Positions 2,897-36,168 of a DNA stretch of 36,168 nucleotides are shown here, piece by piece (position 1 is the first letter of the stretch; every line of letters starts with the position of its first letter). Under the pieces are notes generated by a model that ran no database searches, was not told where the DNA came from, and saw only the letters and a list, made by a program, of their open reading frames with translations. The DNA lies in contig JAFCCD010000003.1 in NCBI GenBank assembly GCA_017610405.1, positions 1 to 36,168 of the forward strand, read 5' to 3'. This stretch comes from Nanobdellota archaeon. GTDB taxonomy: Archaea > Nanobdellota > Nanobdellia > Pacearchaeales > GW2011-AR1. The translations under genes were made by a program, and so were the position numbers.

Positions 2897-2967
2897 TGCG
2901 CACGCGGAGAATCGAACTCCGGTCTGATCGTTGGCAACGATCTATTCTGCCACTTAACTACGCACGC
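2897..2967 (-). tRNA. tRNA-Gly(GCC)
   Basis: Acceptor GCGTGCG/CGTGCGC, T-arm CGGAG-TTCGATT-CTCCG, anticodon arm GATCG-TTGCCAA-CGATC. Confidence 0.95.
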
Positions 2968-3224: not shown

Positions 3225-3235
3225 TTTACTTTTAA

Positions 3236-3258
3236 TGATCCATACAGGAATCAAACCT
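3236..3258 (-). repeat. Displaced copy of tRNA-Val(UAC) 3' end
   Basis: tgatccatacaggaatcaaacct vs tgGtccatacaggaatcGGacct at 6440-6462: 20/23 identical, same orientation. Confidence 0.75.
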
Positions 3259-3412
3259 AAGTTTGCTCAACATAAAAAAAACTATATCTTTTTTAACTTT
3301 TTTGGTAGTAATGGGTTTGCACAATAAGTCTATGTTATACAAAAAGTCATCCAATTTGAAGATAAAGAAAAAATATCTATATGTGATTTATCTCTAAGCT
3401 TAAAATTTATTT

Positions 3413-3706
3413 TTAAAGTATTTCTTTTATCTTTTTTCCACTTTCTTCTCTAAATTCAATCCCTTTTTCTTTTAAGGCAGAAATCATATTTCCTCCAATC
3501 TTTCCTGCGACAACTAAATTAACCTTTTTATCTGCTAACATATAAGCCACAGAAAAACCAGCCCCGCCACCACCTGTTGCAAAAGGATTTTTAATTGTTT
3601 CTATTAATTTTTTATCTTCAAAAATAAGATAATAAGGGGCTCTTCCGCCTCTTTGACTTATTTCTGAATCTTCATTTTTTCCTTCAGATGCTATAGCTAT
3701 TTTCAT
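3413..3706 (-). CDS. NifX/NifB-C-terminal-like (dinitrogenase iron-molybdenum cofactor) domain protein
   Basis: MKIAIASEGKNEDSEISQRGGRAPYYLIFE...GGGGAGFSVAYMLADKKVNLVVAGKIGGN typical of the family. Confidence 0.8.
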   Translation of the reverse strand: MKIAIASEGKNEDSEISQRGGRAPYYLIFEDKKLIETIKNPFATGGGGAGFSVAYMLADKKVNLVVAGKIGGNMISALKEKGIEFREESGKKIKEIL

Positions 3707-4215
3707 TTTTTAACCTCCATTAATTTATTTATTAATATACCTTGAATAATAGATATAATAATCATAACAAAACTTAAAATTATTATATATTGCCATCCAA
3801 AATAAAGAATTGCAATAGGTAATAAAGGAATCTTTATTGCTCTGTTATATAAAAAACAAGCGGCAAGTCCATAGCTTAATCCCTTTGCTTTTAAATCTGC
3901 AAGTAATGGATACCACATATAAATAGGGCCAGTAGATAAAATTCCTCCAATAATTACAAAAAACCATTTTTTAACCCCCTTTTCTTTAAGATGTTTCATT
4001 ATAAATCTTGGAGTTATAAAATAATTAGTTAAACTCATTAAAACAAAAACAAGAATAAATACAGGAATTATTTTTAAAAGAATATTATGAAAAAAGTTTA
4101 TACTTAAGGAGAATAAGTCTTGTCTAATAAAAAATAAAAAAAGATAAATAATTAGCATACCTATTAAAAAATACCATGCTCCTGAAATTTGTTTTAATTT
4201 ATCTTTTATGTTCAT
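3703..4215 (-). CDS. Permease, UPF0718/DUF318 (ArsP-like) family, C-terminal half
   Basis: Multi-TM; GGILSTGPIYMWYPLLADLKAKGLSYGLAACFLYNRAIKIPLLP resembles COG0701-type permeases. Confidence 0.65.
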   Translation of the reverse strand: MNIKDKLKQISGAWYFLIGMLIIYLFLFFIRQDLFSLSINFFHNILLKIIPVFILVFVLMSLTNYFITPRFIMKHLKEKGVKKWFFVIIGGILSTGPIYMWYPLLADLKAKGLSYGLAACFLYNRAIKIPLLPIAILYFGWQYIIILSFVMIIISIIQGILINKLMEVKK

Positions 4216-4216
4216 C

Positions 4217-4627
4217 TTATAACACTCCTAAAATTAATATTGTGATTATAGCTACGATTATTGCTAAAATAAATGCAGTAATGTTTCTTAACAAAGCAAA
4301 TTTTTTCCCTAAAATTGCTGATTCTGCAGGTAATTGTATTAATCCAACCGTAACCCAAGCAACTAAGAAAGCAGTGACAGCCAAAAGATTAACTCCTTGA
4401 GTTAAAAGTTCTCCACCAAAAATATAACTTGTTACAGGATTTCCTGCAGATATGCTTCCCGCTAAACTACCAATAAAAGAATCTGAAATAATATTTTTAC
4501 TAAATATATTTGTATAAAATGATTTTGGGATTAAAGTAGAAATTAAGCTTATAAGTAAAATGGTTCCTAAGATCATAGGAAATGCTTTCCATAATCCTTT
4601 TCCTGCTTTTATTATTGATTGTTTCAT
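4217..4627 (-). CDS. Permease, UPF0718/DUF318 (ArsP-like) family, N-terminal half
   Basis: Multi-TM; GSLAGSISAGNPVTSYIFGGELLTQGVNLLAVTAFLVAWVTVGLIQLPAE is characteristic. Confidence 0.65.
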   Translation of the reverse strand: MKQSIIKAGKGLWKAFPMILGTILLISLISTLIPKSFYTNIFSKNIISDSFIGSLAGSISAGNPVTSYIFGGELLTQGVNLLAVTAFLVAWVTVGLIQLPAESAILGKKFALLRNITAFILAIIVAIITILILGVL

Positions 4628-4648
4628 TTTGATTTTTTAGATAATTTT

Positions 4649-5308
4649 TTAAATTTCATAAATAAAAATTTTTTCATAAGGAATAAACCATTTTATAGCT
4701 TTTTCTTTTGGAGCTTTTTCAATAATCTTTCTAAATATCCTTATTGAATTTCCGTGTGCAGATATTGCTACATTAACATTGTTTCTTCTCATATATTTTT
4801 TTAACCAAAAAATAAACTTCTTAACTCTTTTTTCAACTTCTGCAAAGCTCTCTCCGTTTGGAGCTGCAACATTATAACCTCTATGAATTGCTTTGTATTC
4901 TTTTTTCCCTAAAAACTTTTCAACTTCTTTTTTTTGTTTTGGATTCAAATTTTCAATAGCATCTCCATAAATTCTAAGGTCATAACTTTTCTTTCCTATT
5001 TTTTCAATAAAACTCTTATGGCTTATTCCTTCTAAATCTCCATAACTTCTTTCAATCATCCTATCATCTTCAATAATCTTTTTACATTCTGGATGAAATT
5101 TTAGGACTTGTTTTAGTGTATTTTTTGATCGGGGTAAAGATGTATGAATTGCAACTTCAAATTTTTTATTCTTTAACTTTTTAGCAACTTTTTTCGCATC
5201 ATTTATTCCTTTTAGAGTTAATTTTGATTCACTTTGTCCTGTAAAAATTCCTTTCTCATTATTTTTTGTTTCACCATGTCTAAATAAATAAATTTTATTA
5301 TGTTTCAT
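4649..5308 (-). CDS. Histidine phosphatase / phosphoglycerate mutase-like
   Basis: KIYLFRHGETKNNEKGIFTGQSESKLTLKG and AISAHGNSIR; start placed at second Met, just after upstream stop. Confidence 0.85.
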   Translation of the reverse strand: MKHNKIYLFRHGETKNNEKGIFTGQSESKLTLKGINDAKKVAKKLKNKKFEVAIHTSLPRSKNTLKQVLKFHPECKKIIEDDRMIERSYGDLEGISHKSFIEKIGKKSYDLRIYGDAIENLNPKQKKEVEKFLGKKEYKAIHRGYNVAAPNGESFAEVEKRVKKFIFWLKKYMRRNNVNVAISAHGNSIRIFRKIIEKAPKEKAIKWFIPYEKIFIYEI

Positions 5309-5309
5309 T

Positions 5310-5498
5310 TTAATGACTACATCCAAAATCTAATTCTTTAAGATTATCTATGTTTTCAATAACTTCTTTCACTGTTTTGTAAATTTCTAAATTCTTTATG
5401 TTTGTGTCATAAATTCCAAAATAAGGACAATATCTGAAATGTTTACTAAGTTTAGAATTAAGTCCCATATTCTCATCTATTGCTAACAATAATTTCAT
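5310..5498 (-). CDS. Short NifX-like protein (62 aa)
   Basis: MKLLLAIDENMGLNSKLSKHFRYCPYFGIYD resembles the N-terminal half of the NifX/NifB-C family. Confidence 0.5.
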   Translation of the reverse strand: MKLLLAIDENMGLNSKLSKHFRYCPYFGIYDTNIKNLEIYKTVKEVIENIDNLKELDFGCSH

Positions 5499-5526
5499 TT
5501 TATTTTCTCTTTATTTTATCTTTATT

Positions 5527-6006
5527 TTATCTTTTTGTCATAGAACTTCCACATTTAGGACATTTTTGCTGTGTGCAAGGAACTCCAACTGAATGAGGAA
5601 CTTTTGCTCCACATTTTGGGCAAACACAAACTCCTCCAGGTCCACCTGCAACAGGTCCACCCATTCTTCCTTTGCCTCCACCAGCTGGCGCTCTAAAACG
5701 TCCACCTCTTGGTCTTACCATTTCAAAATCACCTCCTTTAATTTTAATTGCTTGACCATTAATTATAGCATCTGCTAATTTTTTTCTTCCTATTCTAAGT
5801 AATCTTGATAATGTAGACTGAGATATTTTCATCTTTTTTCCAGCTTTGCCTTGTTCCATTCCTTCAAAATCTATTAGTCTTATTGCTTCTAATTCATCAA
5901 AACTCAAAATAGTTTCTTTTAAATTAGACATAGGAATCCCTACTGGTTTAAAATAAGTTACATCTGGTTGAAAAGAGATTCTTCTGATTCTTCTGGGTCT
6001 TACCAT
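5527..6006 (-). CDS. DUF134 (UPF0251) family HTH protein with C-terminal zinc ribbon
   Basis: MVRPRRIRRISFQPDVTYFKPVGIP...LSFDELEAIRLIDFEGMEQGKAGKKMKISQSTLSRLL; C-terminal CPKC...CPKC. Confidence 0.85.
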   Translation of the reverse strand: MVRPRRIRRISFQPDVTYFKPVGIPMSNLKETILSFDELEAIRLIDFEGMEQGKAGKKMKISQSTLSRLLRIGRKKLADAIINGQAIKIKGGDFEMVRPRGGRFRAPAGGGKGRMGGPVAGGPGGVCVCPKCGAKVPHSVGVPCTQQKCPKCGSSMTKR

Positions 6007-6013
6007 TTTCTTA

Positions 6014-6322
6014 TTACTCTTTCAATTCTTTTAACCTTTTTTGTATTTCTTCCATGTCTTGTTTCAAGGTTTCTAATTCTTCTTTGAGATATTGTTTTTC
6101 TTGTTTTTCTGTAATTACTTGTGGTTGCATTTGTTGTATTGGCATTGGTTGGATAGCTTTTACTCTCCATCCAAATCCTCTTCCTCTACCGAATCCTCTA
6201 CCCATTCCTCGACCGTAACCTTGGTTTACAAAACCAGGCGTGTTAAAACCTGCACAATATCCCATTCCTCTTCCAGTCATTGATCCTTGTCCATTTGGAC
6301 CTGTTCCATCTCCTTGTGGCAT
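6014..6322 (-). CDS. DUF5320-like Gly/Met/Arg-rich protein
   Basis: MPQGDGTGPNGQGSMTGRGMGYCAGF... N-terminus with C-terminal coiled coil. Confidence 0.75.
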   Translation of the reverse strand: MPQGDGTGPNGQGSMTGRGMGYCAGFNTPGFVNQGYGRGMGRGFGRGRGFGWRVKAIQPMPIQQMQPQVITEKQEKQYLKEELETLKQDMEEIQKRLKELKE

Positions 6323-6439
6323 TTTATTTTCTCCTTGCCCTTTAAAGGCTAATTTAATTATGAATATATAATCATAAAAGTATTTAAATGTTCCGTTTTG
6401 AGCAGATATGCATAATAAGGAATTGGCTAAGAAAATTTA

Positions 6440-6510
6440 TGGTCCATACAGGAATCGGACCTGTGCCTCTTCGGTGTAAACGAAGTGTTCTACCATTAGA
6501 CTAATGGACC
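6440..6510 (-). tRNA. tRNA-Val(TAC)
   Basis: Acceptor GGTCCAT/ATGGACC, T-arm ACAGG-TCCGATT-CCTGT, anticodon arm CTTCG-TTTACAC-CGAAG. Confidence 0.95.
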
Positions 6511-6556
6511 TTAATTTAAGATAGAAGAATTTAGCTTTTAAAAGTTTTGAAATGCT

Positions 6557-6583
6557 AAACGCCTTGACCAGGAGAGTGGAGGA
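6557..6583 (-). repeat. Displaced tRNA-Ser(GGA) 3'-end relic with CCTCCACTCT arm
   Basis: acgccTtgaccagga (6560-6574) vs acgccctgaccagga (7126-7140): 14/15; minus strand reads CCTCCACTCTCCTGGTCAAGGCGTTTA. Confidence 0.6.
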
Positions 6584-6633
6584 ATTAATGTTTTTATTTC
6601 CTTAATAAACTACTTTTCTAATATGGTTGGGGG

Positions 6634-6996
6634 TTAAATTCTTTCCTTACTATAAACAGAGACATTTTTTGCCCCAAAAAATTTCTTACAGAATTTTACA
6701 AGGATTTTAGAATTATATTTTTTACAACTAAAAACATCAATAAAAGCCCTATTACCTTTATCATCACAATGAATTACTATTGATGAAGTCTCTATAAATT
6801 GCATAGCAGACCATCCTTTTAATTTTCCACTTCCAAATTGATCTATTCTTGTAGGACCATGTCTCTTCATCTTTAGAACTTCAGCTAGTTCTTTAATAAA
6901 TCGCTTTATGATTTTGGGATCTCTTAAAAGTTTGTTATTACAATCATGCAAATCTACATTTGTTGATCTTCCCCACAACCAATCTTTTTTTACCAT
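6634..6996 (-). CDS. S-adenosylmethionine decarboxylase-like (SpeD family) protein
   Basis: GWSAMQFIETSSIVIHCDDKGNRAFIDVFSCKKYN matches SpeD catalytic Ser / His / Cys spacing. Confidence 0.75.
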   Translation of the reverse strand: MVKKDWLWGRSTNVDLHDCNNKLLRDPKIIKRFIKELAEVLKMKRHGPTRIDQFGSGKLKGWSAMQFIETSSIVIHCDDKGNRAFIDVFSCKKYNSKILVKFCKKFFGAKNVSVYSKERI

Positions 6997-7126
6997 TTTT
7001 ATGATATATAATAAATCTTTTTAAATTCTCTTATTTTTTAGCTATAATAAACATAAAACCCTCATAATTATTGTTTCTTTCTTCAGAATGCATTGAGAAA
7101 ATTCTAATTGTATTACTTATTATACA

Positions 7127-7206
7127 CGCCCTGACCAGGAATCGAACCTGGGAGTCCAAAGGACCACGATTTCCAGTCGTGTGCAATACCACTATGCGAT
7201 CAGGGC
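7127..7206 (-). tRNA. tRNA-Ser(GGA)
   Basis: Acceptor GCCCTGA/TCAGGGC, discriminator G, long variable arm, anticodon arm CACGA-CTGGAAA-TCGTG. Confidence 0.93.
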
Positions 7207-13486: not shown

Positions 13487-13558
13487 GCCTCAATGGTCTA
13501 ATGGCTATGACGCTAGCCTGTCGCGCTGGAGACCCGGGTTCGATTCCCGGTTGGGGCG
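13487..13558 (+). tRNA. tRNA-Asp(GTC)
   Basis: Acceptor GCCTCAA/TTGGGGC, anticodon arm CTAGC-CTGTCGC-GCTGG, T-arm CCGGG-TTCGATT-CCCGG. Confidence 0.95.
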
Positions 13559-13607
13559 TAAACCTTTTATACATTATTTTCTTTAGATTATAAAGAGGAG
13601 GTGAAAA

Positions 13608-13811
13608 ATGATAAAAATTTGGAAAAAAGCTCAGAAGAGACTTGATCATTGGGATACAGGTTTGATAAAATTCGGTTCGATGGCCCTTATCTTATTCATT
13701 ATAACTATCTGGCCTGCAGTGATGGATTTGGTGCGCTCGATTCACTGGGGATGGTTCTTAGCAGCAGTTATAGTCCTTTTCGCAAGACCATTCAAGAGGG
13801 CGTATCTGTAA
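13608..13811 (+). CDS. Small (67 aa) membrane protein
   Basis: AGGAGGTGA Shine-Dalgarno just before ATG; two hydrophobic segments. Confidence 0.7.
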   Translation: MIKIWKKAQKRLDHWDTGLIKFGSMALILFIITIWPAVMDLVRSIHWGWFLAAVIVLFARPFKRAYL

Positions 13812-13885
13812 TAACAAAATGGCAAAACCAAAATCATAAATTTAACAGGAACCCCATGTTCCTTTTCTTTCTTTTTATTTTAATT

Positions 13886-13909
13886 CCCCCTACTCTTCCA
13901 GTTGGGTGT
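13886..13909 (+). repeat. Weak tRNA-Asp 3'-end-like relic (copy a)
   Basis: CCCCCTACTCTTCCAGTTGGGTGT vs ...GATTCCCGGTTGGGGCG. Confidence 0.4.
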
Positions 13910-13911
13910 TT

Positions 13912-15288
13912 TCAATATCTTCTAGAACCACTTCTTCTTTGATTACCTCTTCCTCGACTAGGCCTTTTGTTATATCTTGAATTGCTACTTCTTCCTCTAT
14001 TGGAAGTTCTGCTGTCGCTTCTTCCCCTACTAGGTCTTCTATCCTTTGGACCGCTACTTTTTCCACTAAAACCCCTATTACTACTTCTTTGAGGAATCCT
14101 TCTGCTCCAGTTAGTACTATCTCTGCTATAACTTCTTCTAACAGGCCTTTTATTCAAAATTATTTGAACTCTTTTTATATATGGAACTTTTATAGGAGCA
14201 ATTTTTAACTCTTCATCTCGAGAAACATTGCTAAAATTTGCATAATCTCTACTACATAATAGACTAATTGCAATTCCTTCTTTTCCTGCACGTGCTGTTC
14301 TGCCAATTCTATGAATATAATCTACACTTGTTTTTGGCAAGTCGTAATTGTAAACATGACTTACTCCTGGAATATCAAGCCCTCTTGCAGCAACATCTGT
14401 GCAAACTAAAATGGTTGTTCCTCGGTTACTGTTAAATTCTTCCATAACCCTATTTCTTTGGTTTTGGCTTAATCCCCCATGAATTGGTTTTGCATATATC
14501 CCAAGATTATTCAAATTTTTAGTTATAAAATCAACATTTCTTCTAGTTCCACAAAAAACCATAACTAACTTTGCTCTTTCTTTTTTCAATAAATGAACTA
14601 ATAAAGAAAATTTTAAATTATCTTGAACATCATAATAAACTTGTTTTAGTTTTGTAGGACCTACATAAGATTCAACTGAAACTTCTTTTGCGTTTTTAGT
14701 ATATTTTTTTGCTAAATAATCTATGTCTACAGATATTGTTGCTGAAAAAAGCATTGTTTGTCTTTTTTCTGGGCATTGTTCTAAAATTTTGTGAACATCA
14801 AATTGAAAACCCATATCTAACATTCTATCTACTTCATCTAAAACAAGAAATTTAACCTGGCTTAAATCTAAAGTTCCTCTACCTAAATGATCTAATATTC
14901 TTCCAGGAGTTCCCACAACAACATCAGTATCTCCTAAATGCCTAATTTGATCTTGAATAGAAACTCCACCATAAACAGGCAAAACTTTCAAATTTTTATG
15001 TTTTGAAAATTCTGAAATTGCCATTGAAACTTGTTCAGCAAGTTCTCGCGTAGGTGTTAAAATTAAAGCTTGAACATCTTCACTTTTCTTCAAATTTTCA
15101 ATAATAGTTGAAGCAAATGCTAAAGTTTTTCCAGAACCTGTTGCAGAACCACCTATTACATCTTTGCCAGCTAACACTAATGGGATTGCTTTCTCCTGTA
15201 TTTCTAAAGGAGTTGTAATTCCCGCTTTTTCAAGCACTGTTACAAATTCTCGGCTTAGTCCGAGTTCTTTAAATGTCTTCATATTCAA
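13912..15288 (-). CDS. DEAD-box RNA helicase with R/S/G-rich C-terminal tail
   Basis: GGSATGSGKTLAFA, PTRELAEQ, VLDEVDRMLDMGF, SAT, HRIGRTARAGKEG motifs; low-complexity RGRSSNSRYNKRPSRGRGNQRR tail. Confidence 0.95.
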   Translation of the reverse strand: MNMKTFKELGLSREFVTVLEKAGITTPLEIQEKAIPLVLAGKDVIGGSATGSGKTLAFASTIIENLKKSEDVQALILTPTRELAEQVSMAISEFSKHKNLKVLPVYGGVSIQDQIRHLGDTDVVVGTPGRILDHLGRGTLDLSQVKFLVLDEVDRMLDMGFQFDVHKILEQCPEKRQTMLFSATISVDIDYLAKKYTKNAKEVSVESYVGPTKLKQVYYDVQDNLKFSLLVHLLKKERAKLVMVFCGTRRNVDFITKNLNNLGIYAKPIHGGLSQNQRNRVMEEFNSNRGTTILVCTDVAARGLDIPGVSHVYNYDLPKTSVDYIHRIGRTARAGKEGIAISLLCSRDYANFSNVSRDEELKIAPIKVPYIKRVQIILNKRPVRRSYSRDSTNWSRRIPQRSSNRGFSGKSSGPKDRRPSRGRSDSRTSNRGRSSNSRYNKRPSRGRGNQRRSGSRRY

Positions 15289-15403
15289 TTATTTATCATA
15301 CAATCAAGAAATATTCTTGAGCAAGTCTTTATGAGCAAGCTCCAAGACTTTAACAATATAATCATATTAAATGAAATTAGGGGTTTATAAGAGTATTAGT
15401 CTA

Positions 15404-15658
15404 ATGGATAATATGGAAAAGCCATGGTATGTTTATATTCTTGAATGTGCAGATGGTTCTTTTTACACTGGTGTAACAAATAATATTGATGCTAGAATGA
15501 AAGCACATGCCGAAGGGAAAGGAAGTAAATATGTCTACAAAAAAGGTTTTAAGAAACTTCTTCGAGCAAAACCTTGTAAAAGTAAATCTAATGCATGCAA
15601 ATATGAATATGCAATTAAAAGACTGCCTAAAAATGAAAAATTAGATTGGTTTAATTGA
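15404..15658 (+). CDS. GIY-YIG nuclease-superfamily protein (UPF0213/YhbQ-like)
   Basis: PWYVYILECADGSFYTGVTNNIDARMKAHAEGKGSKY; start could be 15371, 15404 or 15413. Confidence 0.85.
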   Translation: MDNMEKPWYVYILECADGSFYTGVTNNIDARMKAHAEGKGSKYVYKKGFKKLLRAKPCKSKSNACKYEYAIKRLPKNEKLDWFN

Positions 15659-15676
15659 TTCTGCCCAGTTGGGGTG
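15654..15676 (+). repeat. Weak tRNA-Asp 3'-end-like relic (copy b), overlapping the GIY-YIG stop
   Basis: TTGATTCTGCCCAGTTGGGGTG vs TTCGATTCCCGGTTGGGGCG. Confidence 0.45.
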
Positions 15677-15730
15677 ATTTAGAAAATTTTATACAATAAT
15701 ATTTAAGTATCTTAAAGAATTAAGGGCTTT

Positions 15731-15928
15731 ATGACAAAAAATCTTCAAGATAAGGTTCAATGGTTAAACAGAGAAATTGTGCCTGTCTTAGAAATTCCAA
15801 AACAAGAAGATATTTCTTGTATGACTTTTGAAGAAAAAGTTTTCTATAAAATAATGAGAATAAGAAGCGCTATAAGAAATACTCTGCCCTCTTTTTATAA
15901 ATCTCTAAACAGATATTATAATTTCTAG
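15731..15928 (+). CDS. Hypothetical protein, 65 aa
   Basis: ATG ORF between relics b and c, charged, no recognised domain. Confidence 0.45.
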   Translation: MTKNLQDKVQWLNREIVPVLEIPKQEDISCMTFEEKVFYKIMRIRSAIRNTLPSFYKSLNRYYNF

Positions 15929-15936
15929 TGTTTAAT

Positions 15937-15965
15937 CCCCTTACTCTCCTGGTTAGAGTGTTTAT
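15937..15965 (+). repeat. tRNA 3'-end-like relic (copy c)
   Basis: CCCCTTACTCTCCTGGTTAGAGTGTTTATG. Confidence 0.4.
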
Positions 15966-16008
15966 GATTTTCAATAACCCTTTTAAATCCTAAAGTATTC
16001 TTAAGTAT

Positions 16009-16227
16009 ATGTTTTTTAGCTATAGAAATCTTCAAGAATTAGGTGCAAGAGATGCAATGAATAAAAAAATACCTGATTTCCATCTCCAGGATATTTTTCT
16101 GTATATGAAGAGATATAATTTTGAAAAAAAATATGGTTTGTTAGAAAAAAGAATTAAATTAGATATTAAAGAAAAAAAAGAGAATATGGAAAGATTAATG
16201 GAAAATTTCAAAAATCCTTTTAGATAG
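16009..16227 (+). CDS. Hypothetical protein, 72 aa
   Basis: ATG ORF between relics c and d. Confidence 0.4.
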   Translation: MFFSYRNLQELGARDAMNKKIPDFHLQDIFLYMKRYNFEKKYGLLEKRIKLDIKEKKENMERLMENFKNPFR

Positions 16228-16250
16228 TAAATACTTTAAACTCCTAAACT

Positions 16251-16282
16251 CCCTCCACTTTCCCGGTTGGGGCGTAACCTTT
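16251..16282 (+). repeat. tRNA-Asp 3'-end copy (copy d)
   Basis: 16260-16277 ttcccggttggggcgtaa is an 18/18 match to 13544-13561, including 3 nt beyond the tRNA end; followed by cctttA vs acctttT. Confidence 0.85.
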
Positions 16283-16308
16283 AAATCCATTCAATTTATA
16301 TCTTATTA

Positions 16309-17310
16309 ATGGAAAAAGGTTTTGATTCTTCGTTATATTTTAAAGCCCAAACTGCAAAGATTTTAAAGCGAGTGAAGAAGTTTAAGAGGCTTTATCTTGA
16401 ATTTGGAGGAAAACTAATCTATGATGGTCATGCTTCACGAGTTCTTCCTGGCTATAAAAAAACAACAAAGGTAGAGCTTCTAAAAAAATTAAGAAATCCG
16501 GAAATAATTTATTGTATCAATGCAAAAGACTTACAATCAAAAAAAGTCTTGGGTTTAAAAGAAAGATCCTACCAAAAACAATCATTAAAAGATTTAAGAG
16601 ATATTAATAAATTTGGTCTTAAAAATCATATAATTGTAATAACGAGATTTAATGGCGAAGAAAAAGCAAAGAAATTCTCAAAGAAATTAGAAACAATAGG
16701 GAAGGATGTTTATCTCCATAAAGAGATTGAGGGTTATGGCAAAAGTATAACTAAAACATTAAATGGGTACAAAAAACAACCATATATACCAATAAAAAGC
16801 AATTTGATAATTATATCAGGTCCTGCAGGGGGCTCAGGAAAAATGGCTGTTGCTTTAAGTCAAATCTATCATGAAAAAAAGAAGAAAATTAAATCAGGTT
16901 TTGCGAAATTTGAAACATTTCCTTTCTGGAATCTTTCTCTAAACCACCCAATCAACCTTGCATATGAAGCAGCAACAGCAGATTTACAAGACATAACTAT
17001 GATTGATCCTTTTCACAAAAAAGCCCATAATAAAAAAGCAGTGAATTATAACAGGGATATAAAAAACTTCTTGATTCTCCAGGAAATAAGCAAAAAAATA
17101 ACAAAGAAAAAATTCCCTTTTGGATATAAATCCCCTACAGATATGGGGGTAAATCTAGCAAAAAAAGGAGTCATTGATGATAAAATCTGTCGGGATGCAG
17201 CAATAAAAGAAATCAAAAGACGTTATAAAGCCTATAAAAAAGAATTTGAAAAAGGTAGAGAATCCAAACTTACAATCAAAAGAATGGAAGAAATCATGAA
17301 AAAGATTTAA
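16309..17310 (+). CDS. DUF1846 family protein, apparently lacking the C-terminal domain
   Basis: EKGFDSSLYFKAQ...LYLEFGGKLIYDGHASRVLPGYK, GPAGGSGKMAVALSQIYHEKK, FAKFETFPFWNLSLNHPINLAYEAATADL, DMGVN; 333 aa. Confidence 0.85.
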   Translation: MEKGFDSSLYFKAQTAKILKRVKKFKRLYLEFGGKLIYDGHASRVLPGYKKTTKVELLKKLRNPEIIYCINAKDLQSKKVLGLKERSYQKQSLKDLRDINKFGLKNHIIVITRFNGEEKAKKFSKKLETIGKDVYLHKEIEGYGKSITKTLNGYKKQPYIPIKSNLIIISGPAGGSGKMAVALSQIYHEKKKKIKSGFAKFETFPFWNLSLNHPINLAYEAATADLQDITMIDPFHKKAHNKKAVNYNRDIKNFLILQEISKKITKKKFPFGYKSPTDMGVNLAKKGVIDDKICRDAAIKEIKRRYKAYKKEFEKGRESKLTIKRMEEIMKKI

Positions 17311-17331
17311 GTTCGATTCCCTGTTGGGGCG
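17311..17331 (+). repeat. tRNA-Asp 3'-end copy (copy e)
   Basis: gttcgattcccTgttggggcg vs gttcgattcccGgttggggcg (13538-13558): 20/21; begins immediately after the DUF1846 stop. Confidence 0.85.
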
Positions 17332-17389
17332 CATCTATTCTCATCACAACATCATTTAATTTAAATATACAGATTTCTAAAAAGAAAAT

Positions 17390-30027: not shown

Positions 30028-30240
30028 TTATTCAACCAAAACCTTTTCCTCAATTATTCTAGAAATAGGTTTTCCTGTTTTTTCCTTTAACTTCTTGAGC
30101 TTGTTTATAGTATCTACTGAAAGAGTTATATCTATTCTTTTTCGCTGAAACCCAAGTTCTCCTGTCTTATCATAATTTTCAAGAGCTTCAAAGGTTTTTT
30201 TATGTTTTTTCAATATTTTTTTAATTTCATTTAATTGCAT
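30028..30240 (-). CDS. Ribbon-helix-helix-like putative antitoxin
   Basis: IDITLSVDTINKLKKLKEKTGKPISRIIEEKV; overlaps the upstream Fic/Doc-like ORF by 14 bp. Confidence 0.55.
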   Translation of the reverse strand: MQLNEIKKILKKHKKTFEALENYDKTGELGFQRKRIDITLSVDTINKLKKLKEKTGKPISRIIEEKVLVE

Positions 30241-30568
30241 TTTTTAGCCTCCTCTCAATTTTCCTTATATCATTAATATTTTGTTTTGCTATTGAAATAA
30301 GATGATGGGTTAATAATTCTTCATTTATTTGTTTATCATATTTATTTGCAAAAGCATAGGCAACAAATGCTGCTGTTCTTTTATTTCCGTCTGAAAATGG
30401 ATAATCCACTAATATTGCTCTCCACAGATAGGCTAATTTTTTATACATACCTAATTTCTCGTTCTCTATTCTTAAAAAAGCAAAGTCTAAACTAGAACCA
30501 CTTCTAAGATTACCTTCAAATCCATGATTAATTCTAAGCAGGTCTTTCTTACCAATATTCATACACAT
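30227..30568 (-). CDS. Fic/Doc-family protein with His-to-Tyr motif change
   Basis: ILVDYPFSDGNKRTAAFVAYAFA corresponds to the HxFx(D/N)(A/G)NKRT Doc motif. Confidence 0.75.
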   Translation of the reverse strand: MCMNIGKKDLLRINHGFEGNLRSGSSLDFAFLRIENEKLGMYKKLAYLWRAILVDYPFSDGNKRTAAFVAYAFANKYDKQINEELLTHHLISIAKQNINDIRKIERRLKNAIK

Positions 30569-36006: not shown

Positions 36007-36086
36007 TTTAATTGACTTTATTAAAACTCTTTAGAATATATTTAAATATTTTTATATATGTATATTATTAACTTGTTTAATCACCT

Positions 36087-36168
36087 GCCTGAGTTGGACA
36101 ATGGTGGTCCGCGTGGCTCGAACCCACGTTTCTGAAAAGATATCCAGGTTCGATTCCTGGCTCGGGCG
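36087..36168 (+). tRNA. tRNA-Ser(CGA)
   Basis: Acceptor GCCTGAG/CTCGGGC, discriminator G, anticodon arm CGTGG-CTCGAAC-CCACG, extended variable arm, T-arm CCAGG-TTCGATT-CCTGG. Confidence 0.93.

Follow-up and report, generated by a model that had tools for sequence, protein, structure and literature searches.

The window, a stretch of 36,168 nt, is contig C4 of a Nanobdellota archaeon whose genome is 388 kb as assembled and 72% complete. On its minus strand, an intact tRNA-Ser(GGA) is followed by a 130-bp spacer, a SpeD-family gene and a second copy, here termed a relic, of the tRNA's own 3' end (Table 1). The terminal 15-mer of the tRNA, TCCTGGTCAGGGCGT (minus strand, 7126–7140), recurs in the same orientation as TCCTGGTCAAGGCGT, with 14 of 15 positions identical. 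An initial annotation of this DNA had pointed to this repeat; its length, identity and strand stand, while its position has to be moved from 6560–6574 to 6559–6573. The same annotation held that only a SpeD-like gene lies between the tRNA and the relic, and the ORF at 6634–6996 is alone there. tRNA-Val(TAC), which that annotation does not mention, starts 49 bp past the relic, and the intervening stretch GCATTTCAAAACTTTTAAAAGC, directly beyond it, is probably the tRNA-Val promoter, as judged from its match to the region preceding tRNA-Val in a congener, G006 (21 of 22 positions; 0 of 500 shuffles reached the score). At the far end of the contig, a tRNA at 36086–36168 and one at a second contig end (G000:C20:33-114) score alike with Rfam (49 bits each) and have an identical 3'-end match; the two contigs, C4 and C20, may therefore join or overlap here.

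Table 1. Features of the window around tRNA-anchored units; fractions after relics give positions identical to the tRNA 3' end
Feature	Position	Strand	Basis or remark
tRNA-Gly(GCC), site empty here, Fic-occupied in G009	2897..2967	(-)	alignment
tRNA-Val 3'-end relic, 21/25	3235..3259	(-)	repeat search
Val unit, 3.2 kb, between tRNA-Val and its relic	3260..6439	(-)	Pfam; synteny
tRNA-Val(TAC), past Ser relic; own 3' relic further on	6440..6510	(-)	ARAGORN
Putative tRNA-Val promoter stretch	6534..6555	(-)	identity to pre-tRNA-Val stretch, G006
tRNA-Ser 3'-end relic, putative attR core	6559..6573	(-)	repeat search and controls
Entire inserted unit, 568 bp: spacer, SpeD, relic	6559..7126	(-)	limits inferred from direct repeat
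SpeD-family gene, 120 aa	6634..6996	(-)	Pfam AdoMet_dc, E 8e-19
tRNA-Ser(GGA), intact, unit anchor	7127..7206	(-)	ARAGORN; Rfam RF00005, 56.7 bits
tRNA-Asp(GTC), anchors array of units	13487..13558	(+)	ARAGORN
Weaker Asp-like relic, CCCCTTACTCTCCTGGTTAGAGTGT	15937..15961	(+)	after 65-aa ORF 15731-15928
tRNA-Asp 3' relic, 15/15, after CCCTCCACTT	16261..16275	(+)	repeat search
tRNA-Asp 3' relic, 20/25	17308..17332	(+)	overlaps stop codon of DUF1846 gene 16309-17310
CCYTCYACTYTCC-like stretch sites	6559-6582, 16251-16275, 15937-15961; L148 relic +585		Ser, Asp, and Ala in G004

The centre of the SpeD protein reads QFIETSSIVIH...RAFIDVFSCKKY and is SpeDC-like. It keeps the residues of pyruvoyl enzymes (ETSSIVIH...FSC), namely Ser, His at +5 and Cys at +20 by a spacing read by eye from the alignment, as quoted for S63/H68/C83 of T. 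maritima. In passages of PMC10407285, SpeDC proteins are described as pyruvoyl-dependent ornithine decarboxylases derived from AdoMetDC that are known from DPANN archaea and CPR bacteria and undergo horizontal transfer. Our protein resembles those enzymes in its Ser/His/Cys catalytic residues; its centre also contains Gln, Thr, Phe and Tyr, possibly the four diagnostic residues of the Q..T..F..Y-type centre of SpeDC. Its score against TIGR03330, the equivalog of bacterial-type AdoMetDC, is 36.3 bits, below the cut-off of 75.65. Phylogenetic analysis placed it with 16 others in one clade (100/98) with the centre Q-[FL]-[IL]-[EQK]-T-S, similar to that of the SpeDC enzymes in PMC10407285, and the SpeDs of three congeners in a separate clade (100/99) that excludes it; around its position inside the SpeDC-like clade the tree has open forks and points to no donor. 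Homologs are patchy, being found in only 22 of the 93 genomes searched, so that SpeD is not a core gene here, and none of the other homolog loci has a tRNA within 1.5 kb. A 53%-identical homolog occurs in a CPR bacterium (Amesbacteria), and the nearest named record with a homolog is a Nanoarchaeota MAG; searches of phages and IMG/VR found no relatives, and a sequence search of the PDB gave no match. The patchy distribution, the congener clade without this SpeD and the CPR homolog fit a horizontal gain. Read from sequence, the cargo is most likely a horizontally acquired pyruvoyl-dependent decarboxylase of the SpeDC (ornithine decarboxylase) type. Unlike the speD-type genes in the passages of PMC10407285, which are reported from polyamine gene clusters, it stands alone behind a tRNA.

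A 14/15 match to the Ser 15-mer did not arise in any of 100,000 first-order Markov simulations of 1-kb stretches with the composition of the window, and matches of at least 13/15 occurred in 6e-5 of them; over the whole window, 0.12 matches with at most three mismatches are expected. We then scanned up to 6 kb downstream of every tRNA for its last 14 bases, in this genome and seven relatives. At a threshold of at least 13/14, same-strand downstream copies of the tRNA's own 3' end follow 6 of 32 tRNAs in this genome, compared with 0 of 32 on the opposite strand, 0 of 31 upstream and 2 of 946 swapped pairs (Fisher p 2e-8). Pooled over the eight genomes at no fewer than 12/14, 20 of 274 tRNAs have such a copy, as against 0/274 on the opposite strand, 2/270 upstream and 43/8,920 swapped (p 6.5e-16); at 13/14 or better, there are 11, with 16/8,920 swapped (p 1e-10). 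The initial annotation had counted three instances of a tRNA followed by an accessory gene and a relic, and the pattern reaches far past these. This genome is the richest in relics of the eight, with copies behind Val(TAC), Ser(GGA), Asp(GTC), Thr(TGT), Lys(TTT) and Gln(CTG); the copies behind Glu(TTC) and Glu(CTC) are weaker. Weak 12/14 matches within core or longer genes (Gln +3831 and Lys +766 in G012) are probably due to chance, and the 3'-end scan found no relic at any tRNA of a more distant genome, G021.

The repeated segment is the 3' strand of the acceptor and T stems, 10–17 bp long, similar to the short att sites of tRNA-targeted archaeal elements (PMC6563490), and its sequence is specific to each tRNA; as the swapped controls show, it tracks the identity of the upstream tRNA and not the gene that it follows. 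This bears on what the relics are. Were they functional 3' elements, such as terminators or processing signals selected behind several genes, one could understand why they lie directly after stop codons and why CCTCCACTYTCC opens the tRNA-like core of the Ser and Asp relics alike, but not why they follow the tRNA, and we give this account next to no probability. CCCTCCACTT precedes the Asp relic at 16261–16275 as TCCTCCACTC precedes the Ser relic, and several relics have in common a CCYTCYACTYTCC-like stretch inside the unit, beside the tRNA-like core, which could possibly be a common recombinase arm. We also considered split-tRNA halves, which occur in Nanoarchaeum, and rejected them: the relics comprise the last 10–25 bases only, and a full tRNA adjoins. 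A true integron array, with attC-bearing cassettes and an integron integrase that uses tRNA ends, is very improbable. Integrons and attC clusters have been reported from Archaea, including Nanoarchaeota (PMC9668308), and tandem single-gene cassettes look alike; however, the repeated sites appear to be the last 10–17 bases of a particular tRNA, different for each, and not attC, the dependence of the repeated site on the tRNA speaks against an attC or integron reading, and the 72%-complete genome has yielded no tyrosine recombinase (no PF00589 match that could represent IntI).

What lies behind tRNA-Ser(GGA) is hypervariable. Seven different genes directly follow this tRNA in eight congeners, so SpeD is not syntenic here. 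The order Ser(GGA)-x-Val(TAC)-Gly(GCC) is kept in G006 and G007, x being a Fic gene in the former and an unrelated 109-aa ORF in the latter. Relics close a Fic gene in G008 (+963), a methyltransferase gene in the more distant G068 (+687) and, in G004, two tandem one-gene units of unknown genes (+778 and +1507); in G005, G009 and G010, the same tRNA is followed by other genes, and no relic was found. No empty Ser(GGA) site was found among the congeners, the gaps in G006 and G007 holding other genes, and because a clean empty site was not found, we infer the SpeD insertion itself from the repeat and its sister loci.

At one of these sister loci, the insertion can be followed to the base. G009 carries tRNA-Gly(GCC), one Fic gene and a 17-bp relic at +988, and from the relic onward its sequence aligns with the window directly behind tRNA-Gly (2896 downward) with a score of 146, where the shuffle maximum is 50; the left junction of the G009 unit scores just 40 against the window, mostly through the tRNA itself. 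A single-gene unit of about 1 kb was therefore inserted at the tRNA-Gly end in G009, and the window keeps the empty site. Synteny reveals further empty sites: only 46 and 70 bp separate the Val and Gly tRNAs of G007 and G012, which lack the Val unit, against about 3.5 kb here, with the Val relic between them; past the second Gln(CTG) relic, the next gene begins at +966 in this genome and at +40 in G012; and the gene past the Thr(TGT) relic lies at +4300 here and at +58 in G010. It is improbable, in view of these comparisons, that SpeD arrived by ordinary recombination and that the copy at 6559 goes back to a local duplication of the tRNA end in tandem. Some tRNA ends are indeed copied in tandem, perfectly and at very short range (Leu +54 in G007, L087; Val +34 in G046, L212), but such copies enclose no gene, whereas the gene-bounded pattern occurs at many tRNAs and has empty sites past the relic. 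These gene-less copies, together with a 75-bp duplicated segment at Lys(TTT) (L064, Lys +1070/+1145), are perhaps empty or collapsed units.

The units of this genome differ in size. The Val unit encodes DUF5320, DUF134, His_Phos_1 and Nitro_FeMo-Co family proteins and two hydrophobic proteins, and the Thr unit spans about 4 kb. At tRNA-Gln(CTG) (L067, 9675–10580), a relic at +48, genes for an antitoxin-like protein and a ParE-family toxin, and a second relic at +878 follow one another. Behind tRNA-Asp(GTC), window positions 13559–17332 hold a run of Asp-end-like sites, each right after a gene, with further weak sites at about 15652–15677 and about 13886–13911; the contents of this array include two small ORFs and genes for a GIY-YIG protein, a DUF1846 N-terminal domain that stands alone and, on the opposite strand, a DEAD-box helicase.

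The main rival to site-specific insertion of single genes is that the units are decay remnants of tRNA-targeted proviruses or integrative plasmids, which entered with integrases of their own and were streamlined to one or two genes, the relics being old attR sites. The host genome is small, part of the relics are degraded, and the larger units (Val, Thr and the Asp array) are well explained in this way; in Thaumarchaeota, moreover, integrated mobile elements (iMGEs) are known to insert at tRNA 3' ends with direct repeats from 8 bp upward (median 17; PMC6563490). Decay explains the recurrent one-gene units poorly, however. Most of the units analysed are small, and ten of them, spread over six genomes, contain a single complete gene (SpeD, NYN, three Fic, two methyltransferases and three unknown), whose usual start is 18–150 bp behind the tRNA and whose end lies within about 150 bp of the relic; two-gene units number two, the antitoxin-like and ParE-family toxin pair and an uncharacterised pair. 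No recombinase is present among the scanned cargo proteins. Units at different tRNAs, furthermore, consist of nothing but a related Fic gene, a recurrence not expected from independent decay: the Fic at Glu(TTC) in this genome and that at Ser(GGA) in G006 are 72% identical, and more distant Fic genes lie behind Ser(GGA), Gly(GCC), Ala(TGC) and Glu(TTC) in other congeners. Seven of the 14 full-length Fic genes of the genus lie at most about 1.5 kb downstream of a tRNA on the same strand, where fewer than one is expected, a rough figure that approximates the background fraction at 5–6%. We consider decay unlikely on balance. The window also contains, at 30227–30568, a small Fic/Doc-type gene with a weak PF02661 match and an adjoining 70-aa ORF (region 30028–30568), a possible toxin-antitoxin pair by its sequence.

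The Ser unit has no integrase of its own, SpeD being its sole gene, and the 72%-complete genome gave no match to Phage_integrase (PF00589), SSV-type integrase (PF16795) or Resolvase (PF00239). Phage_integrase matches occur in most relatives, but a host XerA-like protein was rejected as the driver, since G002–G004 have relics without such a match. A single-copy Resolvase (PF00239), with a frame of mostly about 260–280 aa, is present in 7 of 11 congeners (G002–G006, G008 and G010), and the examined stretches of six of these contain relics. G007, which has almost no relics, lacks this Resolvase, yet so do this genome and G009, where relics are present. Neither Phage_integrase nor Resolvase presence thus fully tracks relics across the genus.

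We conclude, with a probability of roughly two in three, that SpeD entered as a cassette of one gene, without an integrase, by site-specific insertion at the 3' end of tRNA-Ser(GGA). The reading of this unit in the initial annotation is supported, as neither outcome that it named as refuting was observed: controls do not produce 14/15 matches as often, and SpeD is neither core nor syntenic at this locus. Insertion by a recombinase acting in trans, functionally like that of an integron, is the best explanation of how it got there. The incoming DNA would be small (a circle, probably, of some 0.57 kb) and would carry one gene and a 10–17 bp match to the 3' strand of the tRNA acceptor and T stems, and the recombinase would exchange strands within this core. 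The tRNA would be left intact and its displaced 3' end would remain at the far side as the relic. Such a tRNA could be used again, and units would therefore stack in tandem; the process may be active at present. In this archaeon and its close relatives, tRNA genes appear to be docking sites for one- or two-gene foreign cassettes. Tentatively, and with less confidence than in the SpeD insertion, we extend this to a tRNA-anchored gene-cassette system of a DPANN lineage, in which single-gene circles might be captured in tandem at many tRNA 3' ends by an in-trans recombinase, with tRNA genes in the role of attI and tRNA tails in that of the cassette site.

Although tiny, DPANN genomes differ in their accessory genes, which raises the question of how they gain single genes. 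If the system proposed here is real, a site-specific route that adds one gene at a time would explain accessory gain and predict the sites of new genes across the group. Its elements are already known: DNA that integrates at tRNA ends, att sites that are short, att-flanked cargo that lacks an integrase, and sites that are re-used in tandem. In the literature searched, which leaves subscription papers largely outside and is weak evidence on this point, we found no account of DPANN archaea with single-gene units at many of their tRNAs.

Among known systems, CIMEs are integrase-less, att-flanked elements that show accretion and are deletion products of conjugative elements. The term is used in passages of PMC7563491 and PMC5704250. 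Our units are like CIMEs in their att-flanked cargo without recombination or transfer genes and in their tandem stacking, and unlike them in being single-gene units at many tRNAs; no integrative conjugative parent element was seen at the loci examined. With the iMGEs of Thaumarchaeota they share insertion at the tRNA 3' end, short direct repeats, an intact tRNA and re-use of the site, but the smallest cryptic element reported from that group measures 2.6 kb and has an integrase gene, whereas the units here are of about 0.5–1 kb, hold one gene and lack an integrase (PMC6563490). Integrons and CALINs offer a third comparison (PMC9668308): like them, the units are one-gene cassettes that stack behind a fixed docking site, and their recombinase may act in trans; unlike them, they dock at a tRNA gene, their sites are tRNA 3' ends particular to each tRNA, no attC-type site is shared and an integrase was not found. 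If the proposal holds, tRNA-anchored cassettes would serve small-genome archaea as integrons serve bacteria, and would constitute a second cassette-capture platform beside integrons, possibly one that moves genes between archaea and CPR bacteria.
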